Shown: positions 3,039 through 33,039 of the stretch, piece by piece
How positions within the stretch are numbered: position 1 is the first letter of the stretch
How the letters are laid out: each line of letters opens with the position of its first letter
DNA from: Candidatus Hodarchaeota archaeon
GTDB lineage: Archaea > Asgardarchaeota > Heimdallarchaeia > Hodarchaeales > Hodarchaeaceae
Reading direction: 5' to 3'
Length of the DNA stretch: 46,104 nucleotides
Assembly: GCA_016839785.1 (NCBI GenBank)
Contig: JAEOTQ010000075.1
Coordinates: 1-46,104 of the forward strand
Translations under genes and position numbers: made by a program
The notes under the pieces: generated by a model
Databases searched by the model: none
What the model was told of the DNA's origin: nothing
What the model saw: the letters and a program-made list of their open reading frames with translations, nothing else

Positions 3039-6000
3039 TTATTTCTCCAATTTGAATTTGAGATTGTCAATTTCAATAGTCTCGTAAATCTCGCCTGTTC
3101 TTTGCGTTCTTATGGTATCAATTCGTGAGATCAATCGTCTAACGTCGAAAATAAACGTATGACGCACATTACGTGGTAAATTCCGGATCGATTTTTCAAG
3201 TCGAGCCAAATTATTAAGGAATTCATCATGAGAAAGACCTTTACGCATCTTTTCCAATTTCCTAAGATCTCTCCAATAATGTTTCATTTTCCCACGGTAT
3301 TCTTTCAATTGATTATCAGTAAGATCCTTTTGTTTGTGATCCTGTTCGAGCTTCTCAAGCTGTGCTTCACGAATCCACTCTCTCTTTTCTTCACTGGGCA
3401 CTCGTTGTAATGATTTAATTGGATTCCACCAATTGGCTTTTTTCGCGACTACCATGATAGCAGGCACTAACAATTGTCTTACCAGTGTAGCATCTAATAA
3501 TATTCCTATGAAAAATGCAAATCCAAATAATTTCAGGATAGCCGAATCAGCGACGAAAAGTGACCCAAGAGAGGAAGCCATGATAAGACCTGCAGCCGTA
3601 ATAATGGTAGAACTTTTGTCTAAGGCTTCTAATATCGCATCTTCATCTGATAATCCCCTCAAAGCTACTTCTTCACGCATTCGAGTAATTATAAAAATAT
3701 CATAATCCATACCAAGTCCAAAGATAAGGACAAACAGCATTATTGGCATAACCCACGATATACCGTAACCAAGAAATTCTACAAAGAATAGCTGACTAGC
3801 GCCAAGTGTAATAATTACAGTCATTAAGATTGTAAGTTCTAATCGTATAGGGGTAAAGATGGATCCTGTAATCAGATATAATATGATAAAAATTCCTATT
3901 AAGACGAAGACAACAATTAAGGGGGTTTCCCGCTCAATAATATCTGACATATCCTTGAAACTAGCAGTTGTTCCACCAACAATGATATCAACTTCCTGAG
4001 TCCCAAAACCAGTAGCTGCATTTACAGTCTGGTATTCTTCAGTCCAGGAACGTAGATGACCAACAAATGCTAAAGAGTCTCCACTTATCGGATCAACATC
4101 CATAATGATATCAAGAACAACTGTTGTATTAGAAACTGGTCCTACAAATTGAGTCATTAATCCTATTGTTAGTGTATCGAGTGTTTCAGAGAAATTCAGA
4201 GGTACACCATTAGGTCGTGTTACCGTATTAATTTGACTAACCAGCACATCTCCATCTGATGTTAAACCGAATTCTTGCTCAATAGCCTCAGCATATTCTT
4301 CAATTTGCTGTAGTTTTACCAAATCATACATTGGATCATTAGTTGCTGAAAGGGGATTACTAAATTGCAGAACAACTTTGATGGGATAAAGCTGTCCTTT
4401 TGGGAAATTCCCCTCCATGGCTTGAAAACCATCCATGGATTCAACATTAAGGGGGAGTAGATCAGCGGTGTCATAGCTCACGCGAATATCCATTGTTTTA
4501 ACAGTAAAGAATGCAGTAACCGCTAAAAATGCTAATATTACTGGCCATGGATGTTTAACTGTCCAGTGGCTCATCCTTTTAATTGAAATTCTCCTTGGCT
4601 TATCGTTCTTACGTCGACCCTCTTTTTCTGCCTTAATATCTGCTTGAATTTTTTCTCGATTTTTGTCATATTCCTTTTGGAAATTTCGGGGGAAGAAGAC
4701 TTTATCCCCAAGGAAGTGTAAAAATATTGGAATGATTGTCAAAGCGGCTAATAATGAGAACGCTATTCCTACCATAGGCCCTAAACCAAGTTGATTCAAT
4801 AGTGGGAAAGTTGAAAGAAGAAGACTTCCAAAACCAATCATCACGGTTGACCCAGAGGAAACAACCGATTCTCCTGCATGAATTGTCGCTTCACGAATGG
4901 CTAAGTATCTATTACGCCCGTATTGACGTTCTTCTTTGTACCGCCACAGGATGAACAGACAATAATCAACACCTGCGCCAAGCATTGTAACAGATAAAAG
5001 TGCCAACATTAACGTGGGGATTTCTTGAGCAGACAACGTTACAACAATGAATACAAAACCGATAGCTTCTACAATAGCAATTCCAATCGCTAATAATGGG
5101 ATAATAGGAGCAATTATACTAAGGAAGACAAGCGACAAAAGACCGATTACTAATATGACTGCGACAATATCCACAGTTTCTATATCCTCGTTGATCGAAT
5201 GAGCACTATCGTACAATTGTGCGAGTCCACCAGTCACCCAATAATCAAGATCATCGTCAAGATTATTAGCCGTGACCAATTCTCTTAGCATTGCTCTGAT
5301 AGGTTCGACTGAATCGGAATAACTTTCACCCTCTTCACTTTCTGGAAAAGATATTACCAATAAAGTGGTTTTGTTATCAGCTGAAATCAATGACTTAGTT
5401 ACTGCTTGTGGAAGGGTATGAATGGTTGGTTCAGGGATAATTAAGGTAATTTGCGATACTAGAGTCTGACCAATACCCCCTGTAATATGTAGAGTTGTGA
5501 TATTACTTCCTGGGACAGTGCTTGCATATAGATTAACCACTAATTCTGTGAAATTAATTGATGCTAAAAGCTGGGTCGTATTAAGCTCAATAGAACCTAA
5601 ATCTGATTCTCCAAACATGGAGGGATCGAAAAATGACGTGATATCCGTACTTTCTAAGATGGTGACAAATAGATTGACAATTATATCCTGAAGAACTTGC
5701 GTAGGAAATCCTGTATCGCGATACAAGACTGCTAACGGAATGATTTGGGTGTTTAAAGCATTTGTAAGAATTGAAACATTCATTGGAATATCTGAAACAT
5801 ATTGTGACAATATACCAGCAGATAATTGTACTACGAAGGATTGTAGTTCTGTTTCATTTTTTATTGTTAATCCAATTACTTCCGAAATCGATTTCGTTGT
5901 ACTGATTTCTGATATCTTGAAAGAAAGGGGAACCCCAGCGTCAGTAAAGTTCATACTACTAAAGATCGTACTTGCATAAACCTGGAATGTGGAATTAGTA

Positions 6001-7658
6001 ATCCCCATCATACGATCTAAAACACCTAACTGAGAAAATTCCACATTAGGGCTTGTGAACGGTGTACCAAGAAAATCACCAAACAGTGGACCACCAATCA
6101 TTGCAGATGCATTCCACAAAGTTGACCAAGTATCCTTGAGAATCAGTAAAGATTGATATTCTGATGATAGACGGTATCCTTGGATATTAGTAGGATTGTT
6201 AATGACCCATTGTTGGAACGAAGACCCATTCACAATGTTGAACACAATCTCATTTAGAGTTGGATCTCCGAAAGCAGGAATAGTTGACATAGCTACCCCA
6301 AGGGGAACACCAAACGGAATGTAGGTCATATTTGTTGATGTGTAAGCCAACGATGATAGAGTGTAATCCTGATTAGGTAACCCATACAGTACTCCAGCCC
6401 ATGTATTATTAATTGCGTCAAGATCGTTCGGGATTGTCAATCCTGTAAAATATGCTGTAGTATAGTTATTAAGATAGAAGATTGCACGAGAAAGATCAAA
6501 CCATAGTCCCATATATTGGATGGGAGCATTATGCAATCCTTCAATGAGAGTACTATTCACTGTTGGAACCAAATCTCCTGATAAATCTAAAACACCCTGC
6601 AAGGATTCTAATCCTGCCTTTAGTTGCGAATCAGCCATAATGGCTTCAAATAGATCATTTAATGTTACTACTGAAACGTTTACTAATCTACCAAGCATAT
6701 ATTGTTGATTAAGTGAAGTTAAGGGTGTAAATTCTAACGCACCATACATAGGCCCGTTCAAAGTTGTTTCATTTGCAAAGTTAGCACCCCATACACTTTC
6801 TAACAGGAGTAGCAATTGATTGACCGCTGGTATGTGTTCTACTGGTACAGTACTTCCCATTGATTGATTAAAGAATCCTAACACTAAATCGTTTAGCAAG
6901 ACATCTATCATAAAATCAGGAGTTAGTAAAGGATTGATTACTCCAAATGTAGCTAAATAAGCTTGTAGAACCATAATTTGATTAAGTTCTCCCGTTGTAT
7001 TATCCCATACAGAATATAAAGTGTCATAATCAGAAGCATAGAAATAGGATTCATATGCCGTTGTAAGGTTTGAAAGGTAATAGATACTACGGGCGAAATC
7101 ATAATAAGTTAATAGATAGAAATCTAGCATCTGAGCAAACATTTCGATGGACTTAGCTAAAATAGTATACTCACCTAATAATTCTTTCATTAAAGTAATA
7201 TTACCCTGATAATCGTTGAGTATAGGCAACATGTTTGTCGTAAGTGTACTCTGAAGTTCGAGCATGGTTTCCTGAAAAATCTCTTGGATATCTTCTTCCA
7301 ATGATACCCAAGAAGTCAGATTTACTTCTGGAATTTCTTCTTCTAACTGGAGTTCGGTGTTTAAATCCTGAATAAGAGAGACAACCTGTTCATTAAAAAC
7401 ATCTAGCGATTCGTTTTTACTCTGCAATAGAATAACCACACTAGAATCCGATCGACCAGGGAACTCTTGTTCAAGTATGTAATCTGCATTGCCTGATTCT
7501 AAATTTTTAGGTAAAAATCCTGCAAAATCTGCATTAGTTGCTGTAAAAGCTCTCAAAGCGAAGGGTACAAACGTAATTGTTAGAATTAATACCATTGGCA
7601 CGATAAACTTTTTGTATGATTGATTAATATCAGCTATAAATTCAAATGGGTTTCTCAA
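3039..7658 (-). CDS. Giant MMPL/RND-family transporter
   Basis: A 1539-residue membrane protein of the MMPL branch of the RND superfamily. One N-terminal helix (about 18-40) leads into an extracytoplasmic region of about 740 residues. A first MMPL helix bundle (about 790-960) follows, then a cytoplasmic basic loop, a second extracytoplasmic domain (about 1040-1210), a second bundle (about 1220-1390) and a 150-residue charged cytoplasmic tail. Both bundles keep the proton-relay type motif: GVDYCLF near residue 898 and GMDYDIF near 1319. The family exports lipids or other hydrophobic molecules using the proton gradient; the cargo here cannot be told. The start is TTG with a GAGGG-type Shine-Dalgarno. 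The first outer domain is far longer than in typical MMPL proteins and is rich in Asn-X-Ser/Thr. It diverges from a MarR/GbsR-type regulator, a likely control pair. Confidence 0.93.
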   Translation of the reverse strand: MRNPFEFIADINQSYKKFIVPMVLILTITFVPFALRAFTATNADFAGFLPKNLESGNADYILEQEFPGRSDSSVVILLQSKNESLDVFNEQVVSLIQDLNTELQLEEEIPEVNLTSWVSLEEDIQEIFQETMLELQSTLTTNMLPILNDYQGNITLMKELLGEYTILAKSIEMFAQMLDFYLLTYYDFARSIYYLSNLTTAYESYFYASDYDTLYSVWDNTTGELNQIMVLQAYLATFGVINPLLTPDFMIDVLLNDLVLGFFNQSMGSTVPVEHIPAVNQLLLLLESVWGANFANETTLNGPMYGALEFTPLTSLNQQYMLGRLVNVSVVTLNDLFEAIMADSQLKAGLESLQGVLDLSGDLVPTVNSTLIEGLHNAPIQYMGLWFDLSRAIFYLNNYTTAYFTGLTIPNDLDAINNTWAGVLYGLPNQDYTLSSLAYTSTNMTYIPFGVPLGVAMSTIPAFGDPTLNEIVFNIVNGSSFQQWVINNPTNIQGYRLSSEYQSLLILKDTWSTLWNASAMIGGPLFGDFLGTPFTSPNVEFSQLGVLDRMMGITNSTFQVYASTIFSSMNFTDAGVPLSFKISEISTTKSISEVIGLTIKNETELQSFVVQLSAGILSQYVSDIPMNVSILTNALNTQIIPLAVLYRDTGFPTQVLQDIIVNLFVTILESTDITSFFDPSMFGESDLGSIELNTTQLLASINFTELVVNLYASTVPGSNITTLHITGGIGQTLVSQITLIIPEPTIHTLPQAVTKSLISADNKTTLLVISFPESEEGESYSDSVEPIRAMLRELVTANNLDDDLDYWVTGGLAQLYDSAHSINEDIETVDIVAVILVIGLLSLVFLSIIAPIIPLLAIGIAIVEAIGFVFIVVTLSAQEIPTLMLALLSVTMLGAGVDYCLFILWRYKEERQYGRNRYLAIREATIHAGESVVSSGSTVMIGFGSLLLSTFPLLNQLGLGPMVGIAFSLLAALTIIPIFLHFLGDKVFFPRNFQKEYDKNREKIQADIKAEKEGRRKNDKPRRISIKRMSHWTVKHPWPVILAFLAVTAFFTVKTMDIRVSYDTADLLPLNVESMDGFQAMEGNFPKGQLYPIKVVLQFSNPLSATNDPMYDLVKLQQIEEYAEAIEQEFGLTSDGDVLVSQINTVTRPNGVPLNFSETLDTLTIGLMTQFVGPVSNTTVVLDIIMDVDPISGDSLAFVGHLRSWTEEYQTVNAATGFGTQEVDIIVGGTTASFKDMSDIIERETPLIVVFVLIGIFIILYLITGSIFTPIRLELTILMTVIITLGASQLFFVEFLGYGISWVMPIMLFVLIFGLGMDYDIFIITRMREEVALRGLSDEDAILEALDKSSTIITAAGLIMASSLGSLFVADSAILKLFGFAFFIGILLDATLVRQLLVPAIMVVAKKANWWNPIKSLQRVPSEEKREWIREAQLEKLEQDHKQKDLTDNQLKEYRGKMKHYWRDLRKLEKMRKGLSHDEFLNNLARLEKSIRNLPRNVRHTFIFDVRRLISRIDTIRTQRTGEIYETIEIDNLKFKLEK

Positions 7659-10238: not shown

Positions 10239-10865
10239 TCAAGTTTCGTCTTCTAAAGATTTTAGAATATTGCTAACTTGGTTTTGATACGTTAAAAGCA
10301 CCTGACCAAGAGAATCGAAGGCTTTGACTACGTTTTCTCCTGTTTGTGCAGAGGTTGTATGGAATGGGACTTTCAATTCATTATTTTCGTATTCATCATG
10401 ATACTCGTTCTCAATGCTACTGATGAAACTTTCGACGGGTTCGATATAAGAAAAATCTGATTCTACTAAATCGGATTTATTTCCAAGGATCATTATGGGA
10501 ACTTTGCGTTGAGAATAAATGAAAATCTCTTCCTTCCATTTTTCGAGAGATTGTAACGAAGTTGGGCGTGTGAGGTCAAAAACAAGAATACCTGCTCGTG
10601 CACCACTAAAATACATATTTCTGATAACATCAAATCGTGCTTGTCCTGCTAGGTCCCATAACTGAAGACTAAGCGTCTTTCCATTATGCTGCAATTGGAA
10701 TGTTGAAATATCGGTACCTATAGTCAATAAATAATTTGTAGTGAATGCTTTTCCAAGCAAGTGTTGAATAAGAGCCGTTTTTCCTACTCCTCCATCCCCA
10801 AGAACACATACTTTGAAATTTGTACGGAATATTCCCTCGGCGAAATCCATTTTTGCCCGTGGCAT
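10239..10865 (-). CDS. Rab/Ras-like small GTPase
   Basis: A 208-residue Ras-superfamily GTPase with every G box intact: G1 GDGGVGKT (23-30), G2 Thr in LTIGTD (T48), G3 WDLAGQ (70-75), G4 NKSD (129-132) and G5 TTSA (about 170). The WDLAGQ form and the switch II run ARFDVIRNMYF are Rab-like. There is a ten-residue N-terminal extension. No Cys lies near the C terminus, so membrane attachment by prenylation, as in eukaryotic Rabs, is not expected. The ATG at 10865 follows a weak GGAAG Shine-Dalgarno. No GAP, GEF or roadblock gene is adjacent; the divergent neighbour is a PEP carboxykinase. Asgard archaea carry many such GTPases; the cellular role here is unknown. Confidence 0.93.
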   Translation of the reverse strand: MPRAKMDFAEGIFRTNFKVCVLGDGGVGKTALIQHLLGKAFTTNYLLTIGTDISTFQLQHNGKTLSLQLWDLAGQARFDVIRNMYFSGARAGILVFDLTRPTSLQSLEKWKEEIFIYSQRKVPIMILGNKSDLVESDFSYIEPVESFISSIENEYHDEYENNELKVPFHTTSAQTGENVVKAFDSLGQVLLTYQNQVSNILKSLEDET

Positions 10866-19902: not shown

Positions 19903-21003
19903 TTAGAAAAGCTGTTCAATTGGATTGAATAGATTAAATTTATCTACTCTTTCGCTTTCTTTAACATCTACCATCATTTTTCGTATGAGGGCAGCTGCGT
20001 ATTCTAATCCTTCATCCTCAAAAATTGAAATATGTTCATGTCCACTCACCTTCCACCCTGTTTTCGGGCTAAGTTTTTTGAGTTCTGAGACAAGATCAGT
20101 AATATCTGCTTCACTTGCTAGCAAATTGTTTAGGATGGTATCTTTTATTACATCTACGGTTAAATCATCCATATTAACTTGAGGTTCGGCACCTGCTTTT
20201 GGGTATTTTTGAAGTAAATCAACCCAATTCGTATCTAATTCTAGCATACTTGGTCTCATATCATTAAGTAAACTGAGGATTTGCATTTGGTCACCTTTAG
20301 GTTTTGTTAGCTCTTGTGTTAATGCTCTGCTAAAAATCCTGCAATTTACTAAACTAAATCCAGGTAAAAGTACTTTTCCTTGTCGAGCATTACCAGGTAC
20401 CAATCCAGTGAAATATTTTGACTCTAAGGAATTAATAATGACCTGTTCTAGTGTTGTAAAAGGAATTACATTACTTAGTAGGTGAATTTTCCTCTCTGTA
20501 ATACGGAAACCACGACTATAATATACTATCGGGGAAGTTTTAGCTTCTTTTAAACCGTCTACGATAGCCTGTGCAAAGTTCTCTGCCTCTTTACGAATAA
20601 TTTCATTCAAATCTCGTTTTGTTATAACCGCAGCTATAGGGTAATTGTCATAAGGTAAGAAGGAGGAAATAGATGAAGCTTGTGATAAGGAGTTTAGCCA
20701 GAATTTCTTAGTACAGGAATCTAAAATGATAATCATACCTTCCGCTGTACTACCGAACCGTTCACGTAATTTTTGCCATTTTTGCTGTCCACCTACAGGC
20801 AATAATAAACTAAAAAATCGTCCTTCATCAAATGAAAGTCGTAAATATTCTGTTTCAATTGTACCGCCAAAATCTTCCTCATAACTCATTGATTGATCTG
20901 TACGAGCAGCTAGTTTGGTTACTAACGCAGTTTTACCACCAGCTTGAGTACCTACTACAAGGAGTCTTCCCGCATTGATTGATTCTTCTCGTGTGTCTGA
21001 CAT
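19903..21003 (-). CDS. Atypical Arf/COG2229-like GTPase with C-terminal extension
   Basis: The third gene of an operon with two large unknown proteins. The N-terminal 190 residues are a Ras-fold GTPase: G1 GTQAGGKT (18-25), a G2 Thr in GGTIETEY (T48), G3 PVGGQ (about 69-73), where the Asp of DxxG is replaced by Pro while the Gly-Gly-Gln of Arf-type WDVGGQ is kept, and G4 TKRD (about 128-131). COG2229 and MglA-like GTPases show a similar loss of Asp (GTPGQ). The remaining 180 residues are an uncharacterised helical region. The frame is open to 21036, but the ATG at 21003, five bases after the upstream stop, is the likely start. Function is unknown; it probably acts as the switch for the two upstream proteins. 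Confidence 0.82.
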   Translation of the reverse strand: MSDTREESINAGRLLVVGTQAGGKTALVTKLAARTDQSMSYEEDFGGTIETEYLRLSFDEGRFFSLLLPVGGQQKWQKLRERFGSTAEGMIIILDSCTKKFWLNSLSQASSISSFLPYDNYPIAAVITKRDLNEIIRKEAENFAQAIVDGLKEAKTSPIVYYSRGFRITERKIHLLSNVIPFTTLEQVIINSLESKYFTGLVPGNARQGKVLLPGFSLVNCRIFSRALTQELTKPKGDQMQILSLLNDMRPSMLELDTNWVDLLQKYPKAGAEPQVNMDDLTVDVIKDTILNNLLASEADITDLVSELKKLSPKTGWKVSGHEHISIFEDEGLEYAAALIRKMMVDVKESERVDKFNLFNPIEQLF

Positions 21004-21007
21004 AACT

Positions 21008-22954
21008 TCAACTCCAATTGTACTTAATATTTCCAATAACCGTCATAAGATCTTTAGGATCTCTAGCACGTGCTTTTTCCAAGACTAAATGCAAATTGTT
21101 CTTTTCAGGACCCAAAGAAAGGTATTTATGAGGTCGATAAACAATTTCAACAGGATCAATACCTGCTTCATCCATAATATCGACTTCTTTAAAGGCTAAT
21201 GCAGATATTCCCTCAGGACTAGTATCATAATAGATAATATATGTTAAATCATCAACAGTAAATACTGTTTGTCTCAACTTAACATTATTATGAAGTGAGG
21301 AAACTTTAAAAGATGGAAGAGATAAGGCTTCAATCACAAGTGATTCTAACAGGAGATTTGTATCGTAAAACCAGGGATAACCGGCCATTTGGGCATAGCG
21401 ATATTCAAATTCGAATCCAGAACGTACCCAGATACTCATATTCTCAGGATGCACTCCTTTTTCGTCATGGTATATTCCGCGCTTAAAATCAATCGCTACT
21501 TGAAATATTGGTACAAATTTCTTCGCTGTAATTAAAGAGGTTGTATCTTCGCTTGAGAAAATATTCTTTAACAATCTAACAGATTGAATTTCCTCGTGAA
21601 TAAGCGTTTCTTCAAGAATTTTCATTAGTTGTTCGCTAACATGATTCCATATTCTCACTGGGAGTTTATTGGTTAAGATATAATTTCCATCAATTAGATC
21701 ATTCCGATCTACCCTTCCTGATAGAATAATATTAGCTAGTTTCTGACAAATCTCTAAAACATCAAATTTAGGTTGGCGATCACTCAGCATAAAGAGAGTA
21801 GATCGAAGAATTTCTGTTTCAACCCCGCTGTAGTCGTAAATCCATGCACGTGAGGGAATTTCCACTACATTGTCAATTACAAATTGCGAACTTTGCATAA
21901 ATGCGTTATTTTGTTTCAATTTATGAAACGGTGCAAGGATTCTTTCAAATGTCCCTTGAAGATTTCCGATATTACCTAGAATTTCACTATTGCGGTGTTT
22001 ATCCATCACTGAAAGACCGAGTAGGTGTTCTTTCTTAAGTCTTAATTCCCCAGGTTGGTCATCTCCCAGACTACTTCCCATAGTTTTCATACGCATGACG
22101 TCTGAAAGCCATGCGATGAATTTACCGATAGGATATTTGTCTATAGATGAATCATAGAATGTATTTAAACCCTTTCTGAGTTCGTCTCTAGGATAACCTG
22201 GTAGTAAATTATCCATAATTGAAAACACTTGACCTTCATTAAAATGCCCATCACTTGGATCCCGTTGGTATTTAGACCATTCAAATTGCTCTTCGATCCG
22301 TCTAAATGTGAGAGATGTCTCAATTAGGCTATCAATTTGATGAAAAGATTGCTTTGTTTGTGTTTTATGGGTTAATACGTCCTCTGATAATGCTGTTAGT
22401 ATTAAAGCATCAGTTAGTACGTTTTGTTTACGATAAGTATTGTTTGGACCAAAGTAAATATTCCGAACATCATTAACTGCTTCTCTGACATTTGTATATT
22501 CACTATAAGGCCAGAGGACTAAACCAAAAAGTTCTGGTAGTTCATGACGATGAGCCGATTGGAGTAGTTTCAGACGTTGTTCAAGTATATATGCGCGTAA
22601 TGAGTCGATATCAGAAAATAAGGACTTAATACTTGCATTTTCACTGTTCACTACATCCTTCCAGTAAGTAACATCTTCTTCAGTAATTAAATGCTTTATT
22701 TGGGTTTGAAGATCGTGTAAATGTGACTCTAATCCAAATAGATTATCATTAATTGGGACAATCACTGGAGCTAGCCACTGCTCAATCATTTGATAAGATA
22801 GGAAGAATTTTTCAGTCATTAGTTGAATATCTTCAAGATCTGAGGGTAAATTTCGAGCGGAACGAATTATATCTAGCTGGGGAAATAGATAATTTATACC
22901 AAGTTCTCCATATGCCTCTTCCAATTGTTTTTCAATATTCGATAAATCAACCAT
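21008..22954 (-). CDS. Large uncharacterised protein, GTPase operon gene 2
   Basis: A soluble protein of 648 residues in a family I cannot name. The first 170 residues are mostly long amphipathic helices with coiled-coil character. The middle is helical. The last 90 residues look like mixed alpha/beta (strands TVFTVDDLTYIIYYD and DPVEIVYRPHKYL). There is no signal peptide, membrane helix or recognised nucleotide motif. The ATG at 22954 overlaps the end of the upstream gene and sits seven bases after AGGAGG, which fixes the start; an in-frame ATG at 22981 is less likely. It lies between the 566-residue protein and the GTPase with almost no gaps, so the three should be made together in fixed ratio and may form a complex. 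Confidence 0.75.
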   Translation of the reverse strand: MVDLSNIEKQLEEAYGELGINYLFPQLDIIRSARNLPSDLEDIQLMTEKFFLSYQMIEQWLAPVIVPINDNLFGLESHLHDLQTQIKHLITEEDVTYWKDVVNSENASIKSLFSDIDSLRAYILEQRLKLLQSAHRHELPELFGLVLWPYSEYTNVREAVNDVRNIYFGPNNTYRKQNVLTDALILTALSEDVLTHKTQTKQSFHQIDSLIETSLTFRRIEEQFEWSKYQRDPSDGHFNEGQVFSIMDNLLPGYPRDELRKGLNTFYDSSIDKYPIGKFIAWLSDVMRMKTMGSSLGDDQPGELRLKKEHLLGLSVMDKHRNSEILGNIGNLQGTFERILAPFHKLKQNNAFMQSSQFVIDNVVEIPSRAWIYDYSGVETEILRSTLFMLSDRQPKFDVLEICQKLANIILSGRVDRNDLIDGNYILTNKLPVRIWNHVSEQLMKILEETLIHEEIQSVRLLKNIFSSEDTTSLITAKKFVPIFQVAIDFKRGIYHDEKGVHPENMSIWVRSGFEFEYRYAQMAGYPWFYDTNLLLESLVIEALSLPSFKVSSLHNNVKLRQTVFTVDDLTYIIYYDTSPEGISALAFKEVDIMDEAGIDPVEIVYRPHKYLSLGPEKNNLHLVLEKARARDPKDLMTVIGNIKYNWS

Positions 22955-22958
22955 CTTT

Positions 22959-24659
22959 TTATTCCTCCTGTACTCCACCAACAGAGGTGTTGGTTAATAA
23001 TTCCAGAAATTTAAATTCTTCTTTAAACAACTCTATAAACGATTGAGTAATTTTCCTTTGTTGCAAAATAGAGATTTTTCCTCCTCCAAATGCTAATTCA
23101 GTACTTTTTAATGCGAGTATGCTTGAATATATATCGGCTATTGAAGCTTCATCGTCAACGAGATTCTGTGCTTTGTTACCGTACTGTTTCGCTAAATTCT
23201 GTGGCGTATCGGTTGTTTCCATTAGCTCTTTTCTTATATCCATATCTCCTGTTTCGGTGAGAGCTGCCTTTACTTCTTTCTCTAATTCACTGAAATATAC
23301 TTCTCCTCTTGGAACCAATCTATCATAAGTAAATTTGAAAGCATCTTCTATAGATTGTTCCTCTGATTCGCTCCCCAAATATGTATGCATATTTGTTACA
23401 ACATTTAATACTTCTGCTTCCACTTCCTCTTTTAGAACGTGTTTTTCAAGATTATTTATTCTTCGATTTAAGATTAATCTTGACTGAATCTTACTTACAC
23501 CTTCAGGCTCGGGAATTTGCCTTCCTAAATTTTTAAGTACTGAAGTAATCATAACATCACCTAATTCTCGACATAAGAATTGAGGCTGATAATTTGCTAA
23601 ATCAAGCAAAGATAGAATGGTAGAGTTTGGTTTGTCGGTGAAAAGCTCTTTTTGACTTTGTAGGATATGGATATACTCTGACATATAACCGCTATAATTC
23701 CGCTGCTGGGCGTATTCACTTCTCATTCTAGCCCTAAAGTTACTTTTTACCGTATTAAATTGGTTCAATCGGATTGAAAAGAGTAGTGCACTTTTCATGG
23801 ATTCAATATCAGGGAATTGGTCAACAACATCTATTTTCATGTCTTCTATCTTTGTAACTGCTTGTGCATCAAACGCTAACAATAATCGCAACCATAAATG
23901 AAATATCCGATAGGGATAGTATTCAGGATTATTCCCCGCAATATAACGAAGTAAAAAATTTGGTTTTAATTTTGTATGGGGATTTTGCTCTCCAATAAAT
24001 GGTCGATTGTCATCTCTATTGGGTTGGATGAAGCGACGAACTAATAATTTGTCAGCAATTTCATAATCAAGCAAAAAATCAATGACTTCTGATATTTCCT
24101 CATCAGTCAGAATATAAAGTTTTGTTATAATAATGGATAATAATCCGTAAAGTTCAATTTGACATTTGGCATATTTTTTTGCAATGTCTTCAGGCCGATT
24201 TATATCATATAAGAACGACTGTTCAGGTTTTTCCGTGATATCGGGATCTAAAAAGCTAAGAAGTTCTACTCGTGTATCTTTAAAACGATCTCTGCTAGAA
24301 AAATGATCTTCAGCCAATAATGATTTTCTGACAACGAAATCTAATTCATTTTCTGGCACAGGAGGTAAAAATCTGATTTGATCAGCAAAAAATCCGAGAT
24401 CTCCATACCAAGGACGGATTTTCCATTCTGTACTGTCGATCAATCGTTGAATAATCTTATGACGAACACCTGTTGCTTCCCACGCGTGAACAGAATCATC
24501 CCCCAAGAATAGTGAACGTTTGTAAGTTTTTGCTTCTTCAGTCCCTATTGTATCAACAGGATAGCGGACATACCATGTTTCCCCTAAAACTGTAGAAAAC
24601 CACTTTCTATGTGCGACATATGTTTTCCACAGGTCTTCGGCTTCTTCGAAAATTGTCAT
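22959..24659 (-). CDS. Large uncharacterised protein, GTPase operon gene 1
   Basis: A soluble, almost entirely helical protein of 566 residues and the first gene of the GTPase operon. It is Trp- and Tyr-rich near the N terminus (TWYVRYPVDTIG, KIRPWYGDLGFF). A run of charged helices follows, with a possible coiled coil at about 440-500. No catalytic motif, Cys cluster or membrane segment is visible and I know no matching family. The ATG at 24659 is preceded by two TATA-like sites, one inside a GGTTA-AA-TAACC inverted repeat. Its end overlaps the Shine-Dalgarno and start region of the next gene. Confidence 0.75.
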   Translation of the reverse strand: MTIFEEAEDLWKTYVAHRKWFSTVLGETWYVRYPVDTIGTEEAKTYKRSLFLGDDSVHAWEATGVRHKIIQRLIDSTEWKIRPWYGDLGFFADQIRFLPPVPENELDFVVRKSLLAEDHFSSRDRFKDTRVELLSFLDPDITEKPEQSFLYDINRPEDIAKKYAKCQIELYGLLSIIITKLYILTDEEISEVIDFLLDYEIADKLLVRRFIQPNRDDNRPFIGEQNPHTKLKPNFLLRYIAGNNPEYYPYRIFHLWLRLLLAFDAQAVTKIEDMKIDVVDQFPDIESMKSALLFSIRLNQFNTVKSNFRARMRSEYAQQRNYSGYMSEYIHILQSQKELFTDKPNSTILSLLDLANYQPQFLCRELGDVMITSVLKNLGRQIPEPEGVSKIQSRLILNRRINNLEKHVLKEEVEAEVLNVVTNMHTYLGSESEEQSIEDAFKFTYDRLVPRGEVYFSELEKEVKAALTETGDMDIRKELMETTDTPQNLAKQYGNKAQNLVDDEASIADIYSSILALKSTELAFGGGKISILQQRKITQSFIELFKEEFKFLELLTNTSVGGVQEE

Positions 24660-24672
24660 TATGTATCGACCT

Positions 24673-24705
24673 AGTTAAATACTAATTCTGATTGGTTAAA
24701 TAACC
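24673..24705 (-). promoter_or_regulatory. Promoter of the GTPase operon
   Basis: On the minus strand, two TATTTAAC-type TATA elements lie 15-45 bases before the ATG at 24659. The upstream one sits in the inverted repeat GGTTA-AA-TAACC (24694-24705), which could also be an operator. The upstream copy has the better spacing for a short leader. Confidence 0.4.
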
Positions 24706-24823
24706 TACGAAATACCTACCTATTATGCTACATCTGGTTAGCGAGAGCTTGTAAACCAAGTAATTAATCCCATAAATAGTCTTTTTTTGTCCCTCACTAT
24801 AAGAACACGAGTTTAGATGTGCA

Positions 24824-30577: not shown

Positions 30578-30652
30578 AGCCCCGTGGTGTAGAGGCTATC
30601 ATATGAGGCTTTGACCCTCACGACTCCAGTTCGAATCTGGACGGGGCTGCCA
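30578..30652 (+). tRNA. tRNA-Gln (anticodon TTG)
   Basis: A complete cloverleaf. Acceptor AGCCCCG pairs with CGGGGCT; the anticodon stem TGAGG/CCTCA closes the loop CTTTGAC with anticodon TTG; the T-arm is TCCAG-TTCGAAT-CTGGA; discriminator G73 is at 30649 and an encoded CCA at 30650-30652. It has an A1-U72 first pair and an archaeal-looking D-arm (GTGT at 10-13). No intron. It decodes CAA. Confidence 0.95.
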
Positions 30653-30693
30653 TTTCTTCTCTACATAATTTAAATGAATATAAACATTAGTCA

Positions 30694-30765
30694 AGCCCCA
30701 TAGTGTAGTGGTTAGCACCTCAGGCTCTGAATCTGATGACTCCAGTTCGAATCTGGATGGGGCTG
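30694..30765 (+). tRNA. tRNA-Gln (anticodon CTG)
   Basis: The second Gln isoacceptor, 41 bases after the first. Acceptor AGCCCCA/TGGGGCT; anticodon stem TCAGG/TCTGA around the loop CTCTGAA, anticodon CTG; T-arm identical to its neighbour; discriminator G73. The CCA end is not encoded here. It decodes CAG. An AT-rich TATA-like stretch precedes it (30667-30685). Confidence 0.95.
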
Positions 30766-31302: not shown

Positions 31303-33039
31303 TTACTTCTTTTTTTGCCTCTTTTTCTTTGAATGAGGATGCTGTTTAAATATTTTTGCCCATGTATCACGCAATGTGCTCGTACGATTAAATACTAGGT
31401 TGTCTTGGGAAAATTCCTTTGGATCAGTGAAAAAGTATCCTAACCGCTCGAATTGATAATGGCTAGCTGGTTTAGCATTTCCTAAGCTAGGTTCTACATA
31501 TCCTTTTGTTGTTGTTAATGAGTCAGGATTGTAATCAGGCAACCCAGAGGGATCTTCACGCTTGAATAACCGATCATATAATCGAAATTCTGCTTCCAAC
31601 GCATGTGGTTTTGAGAGCCAGTGGATTGTACCTTTTACCTTTCTTCCATCTGGGGACGATCCACCCTTTGTGTTGGGATCATATGTACACTGAAGTTCGA
31701 TAATTTTTCCAGAATCATCTTTTACAAAATTGGTACAAGTAATAAAGTAAGCATTCCGGAGTCGAACTTCTCTACCCACTGTTAATCGATAAAATTTCTT
31801 TGGAGGATCCTCCATAAAATCCTCTTGCTCTATGTACAGCTCTCGTGAAAATGGTACTTTCCGAGTACCTTTAGATATATCTTTTGGATGGTTTGGTATT
31901 TCTAAATGTTCTACCTGGTCATCGGGATAATTTTCAAGAACGATTTTCAATGGATTTAAGATAGCCATTACTCGATTAGCTTCTTGATCTAGTTCTTCAC
32001 GAACACAGGATTCCAATAAACCATAATCAATATTCTTCTCTCGCTTTGTAACACCTACTCTACCAAGAAAAGTTCTCATCGCGCTTGCAGGAAATCCACG
32101 ATTTCGCATTCCTGCTATTGTTGGCATTCGTGGATCATCCCATCCCGAAACATAGTTTCCATCAACTAATTCTAACAGCTTACGTTTACTTGTAATCGTA
32201 TAGGTTACATTCAATCGAGAAAATTCAATTTGCCGAGGTTTATGCTTTAATGCACCAACGGCTAGAAGTTCATCCACAAACCAATCATATAAGGGTCTAT
32301 GGGTTTCAAACTCAAGGGAACAGAGCGAATGAGTTATTCCCTCAATGGCATCTGATTCCCCATGTGTAAAATCATAACTGGGGTAAATTATCCAATCAGT
32401 CCCTGTTCTATAGTGGCTAACCCTTTTAATTCTATACATGATTGGATCACGCATGAGTAGATTGGGAGATGCCATATCTATTTTAGCACGTAAAACCTTT
32501 GAACCGTCCTCAAATTCACCGTTACGTATCCGTTTAAATAAATCGAGATTTTCCTCAATTGTTCTGTCTCGGTAAGGACTATTAACCCCTGGTTCTGTTA
32601 AGGATCCTCTTTGTTCTCTTATCTCGTCAGCACTTAAATCACAGATGTATGCCTTTCCAGCATTAATCAAAGCCACTGCAAGATCATATAATTCCTCAAA
32701 ATAATCTGAAGCAAAATATAACCGATCCTCCCAATCAGCTCCTAACCATTGAATATCCTCTTTAATTGCCTCTACATAGTCCATGCTTTCTTTGGAAGGG
32801 TCAGTATCGTCAAAACGAAGGTTAAAAAGGCCATTATATTCTTGGGCAATACTATAGCTTAAGTAAATCGCCATTGCATGGCCAATGTGCATCCAACCAT
32901 TGGGTTCTGGAGGAAAACGTGTATGAACTCTTCCTTCGTTTTTATTTGTTCGTATATCATCAACCACAATTTTTCGGATAAAATCAAGTCCGGAATCATC
33001 CTTCTTTGTTTCATCAGGCGGATTCTCTGAGGTTTTCAC
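31303..33039 (-). CDS. glnS: Glutaminyl-tRNA synthetase (bacterial/eukaryotic type)
   Basis: Attaches glutamine directly to tRNA-Gln. Its 578 residues match the full length of bacterial GlnRS. The class I HIGH motif is in RFPPEPNGWMHIGHA (HIGH at 51-54), followed by LRFDDTDPSKE. The KMSKS counterpart is TSKRK (about 283-287). GlnRS-specific segments include SLTEPGVNSPYRDRTIEEN, KVLRAKIDMASPNLLMRDP, DFTHGESDAIEGITHSLCSLEF and DDPRMPTIAGMRNRG. The C-terminal anticodon-binding barrels are present (RKVKGTIHWLSKPHALEAE). Archaeal GluRS proteins lack these. It starts with GTG after an AAGGTG Shine-Dalgarno. The two tRNA-Gln genes lie within 2.5 kb. Canonical archaea lack this enzyme, so transfer from a bacterium or a eukaryote-related origin is likely. 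Confidence 0.95.
   Translation of the reverse strand: MKTSENPPDETKKDDSGLDFIRKIVVDDIRTNKNEGRVHTRFPPEPNGWMHIGHAMAIYLSYSIAQEYNGLFNLRFDDTDPSKESMDYVEAIKEDIQWLGADWEDRLYFASDYFEELYDLAVALINAGKAYICDLSADEIREQRGSLTEPGVNSPYRDRTIEENLDLFKRIRNGEFEDGSKVLRAKIDMASPNLLMRDPIMYRIKRVSHYRTGTDWIIYPSYDFTHGESDAIEGITHSLCSLEFETHRPLYDWFVDELLAVGALKHKPRQIEFSRLNVTYTITSKRKLLELVDGNYVSGWDDPRMPTIAGMRNRGFPASAMRTFLGRVGVTKREKNIDYGLLESCVREELDQEANRVMAILNPLKIVLENYPDDQVEHLEIPNHPKDISKGTRKVPFSRELYIEQEDFMEDPPKKFYRLTVGREVRLRNAYFITCTNFVKDDSGKIIELQCTYDPNTKGGSSPDGRKVKGTIHWLSKPHALEAEFRLYDRLFKREDPSGLPDYNPDSLTTTKGYVEPSLGNAKPASHYQFERLGYFFTDPKEFSQDNLVFNRTSTLRDTWAKIFKQHPHSKKKRQKKK

Follow-up and report, generated by a model that had tools for sequence, protein, structure and literature searches.

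Does a packed trio of genes from a Hodarchaeales archaeon, two of them large orphans and the third an atypical GTPase, encode a system that has so far escaped description? The genes lie in the order A-B-C on the minus strand of the window (the whole stretch of DNA that was analysed, 46,104 nucleotides long). An initial annotation, made from the letters of the window, had proposed that they specify a GTPase-switched complex, perhaps associated with a scaffold or a membrane. Its main point held: this is a conserved three-gene GTPase operon, and no description of it was found.

Gene layout and upstream region

As annotated, the three ORFs are tightly packed and share the minus strand. Gene A (22959–24659, 566 aa) and gene B (21008–22954, 648 aa) each represent an orphan family, and gene C (19903–21003, 366 aa) was recognised as a divergent Ras-superfamily GTPase from its Pfam Ras match (E = 1.3e-6) and from alignment. 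The spacing is four bases both between A and B and between B and C. Two details of the annotation are corrected by these measurements. The B-C gap had been given as five bases, and A and B had been said to overlap; the stop codon of A ends at 22959 and the ATG of B lies at 22954, four bases apart. An overlap is seen only if B is started at the upstream TTG of the mechanically called ORF, and the alignment of relatives favours the ATG, which is the start they have in common. The consensus Shine-Dalgarno sequence reported for B is present (GGAGG, 22964–22968, minus strand) and is retained in most relatives. By the Nei-Gojobori method, most pairs of A, B or C sequences with measurable dS have a dN/dS of 0.03–0.15, the exception being C compared between the window and genome G044 (0.26, with dS near saturation). 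Such low values in most measurable pairs indicate that the ORFs did not arise by chance and that A, B and C are all functional proteins. The operon is real, and strong selection acts on it.

Upstream of gene A, the inverted repeat that had been described for the promoter was not recovered. No arms of at least seven bases were found, and a palindrome with five-base arms (GGTTA-TT-TAACC) is present in the window and missing from three relatives. Four species instead share, ahead of A, an invariant promoter block at 24694–24722 (minus strand), in which the 17-bp TAGGTAGGTATTTCGTA (24706–24722) stands just upstream of the TATA-like element TATTTAACC. TAGGTAGGTATTTCGTA has a single site in the whole window (chance expectation 0) and, among the fetched loci, occurs upstream of A only; it is possibly the site of a regulator.

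Distribution and descent

Profile searches of 228 Asgard genomes recovered A and B in eight, all from a single genus, and these carriers are eight of the 12 species searched in that genus (Hodarchaeales MAGs, with the relatives appearing in public records as Hodarchaeota or Heimdallarchaeota MAGs). A weak match to A in G172 (E = 0.0246, 51 positions) was treated as noise. Outside the eight carriers, the C profile gave only G-domain matches to ordinary GTPases. The gene order on which the initial annotation depended is kept wherever the genes occur: it is A-B-C in 8/8 genomes with any A or B, and the intergenic gaps are ~3–24 bases wherever the genes of the carriers are separate. Conservation in relatives, as the annotation had expected it, is thus borne out within one Hodarchaeales genus and does not extend across the Asgard archaea.

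Some carriers hold variants of the cassette. In G045 the whole cassette is present twice, in tandem and split over two contigs, and in G051 a further C survives upstream of A, reduced to its C-terminal part. This remnant has its nearest relative in the first G045 copy (71% identity), and the grouping of the two indicates a duplication older than the split between G045 and G051, most of which was lost in G051. In G044, A and B occupy one frame of 1213 codons, the junction of which (CTGATG) holds an out-of-frame TGA, a possible TGATG overlap. The fusion is an apparent one, seen in a single MAG, and a single-base error near the end of A could create it. Taken together, the tandem cassette and the apparent fusion suggest a unit that works together.

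The window's own assembly has no RpoB match and so no place in the RpoB marker tree, in which G045, G050 and G051 form one group and G046, G047, G043 and G048 another. For the species carrying the operon, trees of the operon genes show the same groups as the main RpoB clades, consistent with vertical descent combined with losses or with gaps in the assemblies. In the four operon-less species, synteny comparison found the flanking gene absent or divergent, close to contig ends. A stretch of unreadable bases breaks gene A in the G050 assembly (L019:10905-11687), and only the C-terminal part of the gene can be read. A viral or plasmid origin was rejected, as viral contigs held no relative of A, B or C, and phage and plasmid records held no match to B.

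Genes flanking the operon vary between clades and are mostly ordinary. None is common to all, and so the operon stands alone. Elsewhere in the window are an MMPL-family transporter ORF (3039–7658, minus strand, 1539 aa), a conventional Ras/Rag-like GTPase gene (10239–10865, minus strand; Ras E = 2.8e-38, Gtr1_RagA E = 1.4e-8), and two tRNA-Gln genes with TTG and CTG anticodons near a gene for a class-I Glu/Gln-type tRNA synthetase (30578–30765 and 31303–33039). In G044, two further Ras-family GTPase genes adjoin the C gene (L014:2166-3938).

Proteins A and B

No Pfam, NCBIfam or PADLOC family scored above threshold for A or for B, in agreement with the initial annotation, which had placed neither in a known family. 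Likewise, families, solved structures and the fold of A revealed no likeness of the two proteins to a known complex. For A, a profile search of solved-structure sequences returned nothing, and its AlphaFold model (mean pLDDT 61; residues ~270–470 confident and helical, N-terminus poor) had no fold match at E ≤ 0.001 in the PDB or among viral models. The C-terminal tail of A is acidic in several members. A match to Actin_micro (E = 0.0086, 15.7 bits against a cut-off of 27, in two of the eight members) was put down to chance, and paralogy of A and B was rejected (hhalign probability 0.2%).

The best-conserved core of B spans residues 294–470. Its AlphaFold model has a mean pLDDT of 39.7, so the fold search made with it was considered a hint only. 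Both large proteins had been described as mostly helical, which the models bear out for A and, in B, for the N-terminal half; the last third of B instead carries several strands, modelled at low confidence. These strands are placed around a helix, and a Roadblock/longin fold was considered for this part and rejected on profile comparison: 38 Asgard Roadblock sequences gave hhalign P values of 0.76, 0.33 and 0.2 with B, A and C, and neither A nor B has a Roadblock match in Pfam. In the profile search of PDB sequences, B matched an engineered helical mimic (E = 0.0011), which was set aside as helix similarity.

Residues 212–293 of B (22076–22321, minus strand) were considered a degenerate EF-hand-like pair from the AlphaFold model, Foldseek, hhalign and the alignment. 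Several of the top Foldseek matches of B are calmodulin, troponin C and myosin light chains, all at E > 0.5. In the model, this stretch is a helix-loop-helix pair with a strand bridge (block pLDDT ~51–76 from residue ~230 on, lower before), and the alignment shows two conserved blocks, EEQFEWSKY.RD..DG.F.E.QV followed by YD.S.D.YPI..F..WL. An Asgard EF-hand-pair profile matched B here in register (hhalign P = 0.0033, probability 9.8%), scoring 25.3 against a best of 21.4 among 300 block-shuffled versions (0/300 as good), and it scored lower with reversed B, A and C than with B. Pfam gave no EF-hand match. The canonical calcium loop (D at position 1, E at 12) is lost from both halves, R and Q standing at these two positions in loop 1 and the position-12 Glu being absent from loop 2. 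Given the poor model of B, the assignment draws on signals that are weak but agree, and residues ~212–293 are probably an EF-hand-like pair, predicted not to bind calcium. GTPases joined to EF-hands are known from Miro and others. Likened by description only, Miro and this operon both associate a GTPase with an EF-hand-like pair, whereas here the pair belongs to a gene other than that of the GTPase, is degenerate and has weak support.

The GTPase and the candidate complex

C can be placed in the Ras superfamily by its above-threshold Pfam match (28.5 bits against a cut-off of 21.6), despite the loss of the G3 motif DxxG. Other GTPases of the same genome, which has 57 Ras matches, reach E values down to 2.5e-50. 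The P-loop GTQ(A/G)GGK(T/S) is present in 9/9 copies of C (GTQAGGKT in the window), with ~11 residues before the P-loop strand. The switch-I Thr, T48, is invariant (GTIETEY, with TIE as in Ras), G4 is conserved as TK(R/K)D, with T128, K129 and D131 invariant, and G5 reads SRG rather than SAK. At G3 (residues 67–73, LLPVGGQ; 20785–20805, minus strand), an alignment that includes H-Ras and other GTPases of this genome upholds the annotated loss of the DxxG Asp, with PVGGQ at the DxxGQ position. All nine copies have PxGGQ, Pro69 stands at the position of Asp57 in Ras, and P69, G71, G72 and Q73 are invariant. Other GTPases of this genome are also without the G3 Asp, with Thr (L065, L111 and L114), Gly (L105) or Glu (L112 and L116) in its place; Pro is found in C only, among those aligned (a few of them in the wrong frame). 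Loss of the G3 Asp is in itself a known variation, seen in MglA as well as in these alignments, and the Pro is the unusual part. The C-terminal extension, annotated as 180 residues long, is present and measures about 170 (residues 196–366; 19906–20418, minus strand). One third of its residues are invariant, it ends in a conserved DPIEELF-like tail, and a profile search of the 228 Asgard genomes gave no match to it outside the family. C therefore resembles ordinary Asgard Ras/Rab/Arf-like GTPases in its superfamily, P-loop, switch I and Gln, and differs from them in its divergence, its Pro at G3 and its private 171-residue extension.

We give an even chance to the reading that the operon encodes one dedicated, cytosolic, GTP-switched complex of three subunits, peculiar to its lineage, whose formation, GTP cycling and target we infer. 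A physical complex is suggested by linkage, by duplication as a block and by the apparent fusion, and the motif state of C would favour nucleotide binding with altered Mg coordination. C would be the nucleotide-binding switch, holding GTP through its intact P-loop, switch-I Thr and TKxD. Lacking the Asp by which Mg2+ is normally held via a water molecule, it would probably cycle slowly or have its cycle completed by a partner. The extension may anchor C to A and B, which would form a linked pair serving as scaffold and as regulator or effector. The EF-hand-like pair of B, probably binding protein rather than calcium, and the extension of C would serve as docking parts, and GTP binding by C would alter how A and B engage a target. 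The membrane association that had been suggested found no support, since no 19-residue window in the three proteins reaches transmembrane hydrophobicity (Kyte-Doolittle maxima 1.51, 1.29 and 1.12).

A complex that is not GTP-switched, with C as a pseudo-GTPase (a structural subunit with permanently bound nucleotide or none), is unlikely in our view, though it deserves serious weight. In its favour, Pro takes the place of the Mg-coordinating Asp in every one of the nine copies, and the G5 motif is altered, but the P-loop Lys, switch-I Thr, G72 and Gln73 are invariant, and a pure scaffold would not need them. In MglA of Myxococcus, Thr78 replaces the G3 Asp, GTP binding is required for stability and the protein acts as a switch; changing the Thr to Asp abolishes its function (PMC3000849). 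By analogy with MglA, loss of the Asp need not mean loss of switching in C.

We have little confidence in a functional equivalence between this operon and ArvABC, the GTPase operon for archaeal vesiculation in Haloferax volcanii (ArvA, PF01926; ArvB, DUF2073; ArvC, a DUF2072 zinc ribbon; PMC10927574). By layout ArvABC is the nearest described system, as it, too, unites three genes in an archaeal operon, one for a small GTPase and two for conserved partners of unknown biochemistry. However, it is widely distributed rather than found in one genus, and its gene order differs, the GTPase being last here. C has no match to PF01926 up to E = 1, and A and B have none to DUF2073 or DUF2072. An N-terminal amphipathic helix is described for ArvA (PMC10927574), and the ~11 N-terminal residues of C are too few for one of that type.

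Spatial regulation of the MglA/MglB type, with C marking a site in the cell and A and B acting as GAP, GEF or effectors, is very improbable. MglA too is a Ras-like GTPase without the G3 Asp and is co-transcribed with its partner, MglB (PMC3000849), and the weak Foldseek matches of B include the Roadblock-type structures 3kye and 3lgo. Against this, C has Pro rather than Thr and a long C-terminal extension, its partners are two large orphans, and no Roadblock partner was detected, profile comparisons of all three proteins against the 38 Asgard sequences being negative. By the features tested, the operon appears to be neither ArvABC nor MglAB.

Equally slim is the prospect of a GTPase-based conflict or defence system, which would explain the patchy presence (8/12 species) and the tandem copies and would suit a DNA methylase gene that lies close to the cassette in G051, but A, B and C have no PADLOC match up to E = 1, the gene trees track the species tree, the flanks are mostly ordinary genes and some absences may be missing MAG sequence.

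The dedicated GTP-switched complex is thus the reading we prefer. More tentatively, and with rather more doubt than conviction, the operon may represent an undescribed kind of GTPase-controlled complex, an invention of one archaeal lineage near the eukaryotes. In it, a Ras-like switch devoid of its Mg-binding Asp would act alongside two private proteins, one of which would contribute an EF-hand-like adaptor. Asgard genomes encode dozens of Ras-like GTPases, of which only a few have, to our knowledge, an identified partner. Here, genetic linkage pairs one such GTPase with its likely partners and offers a three-protein set for probing a switch that is without the usual Asp.
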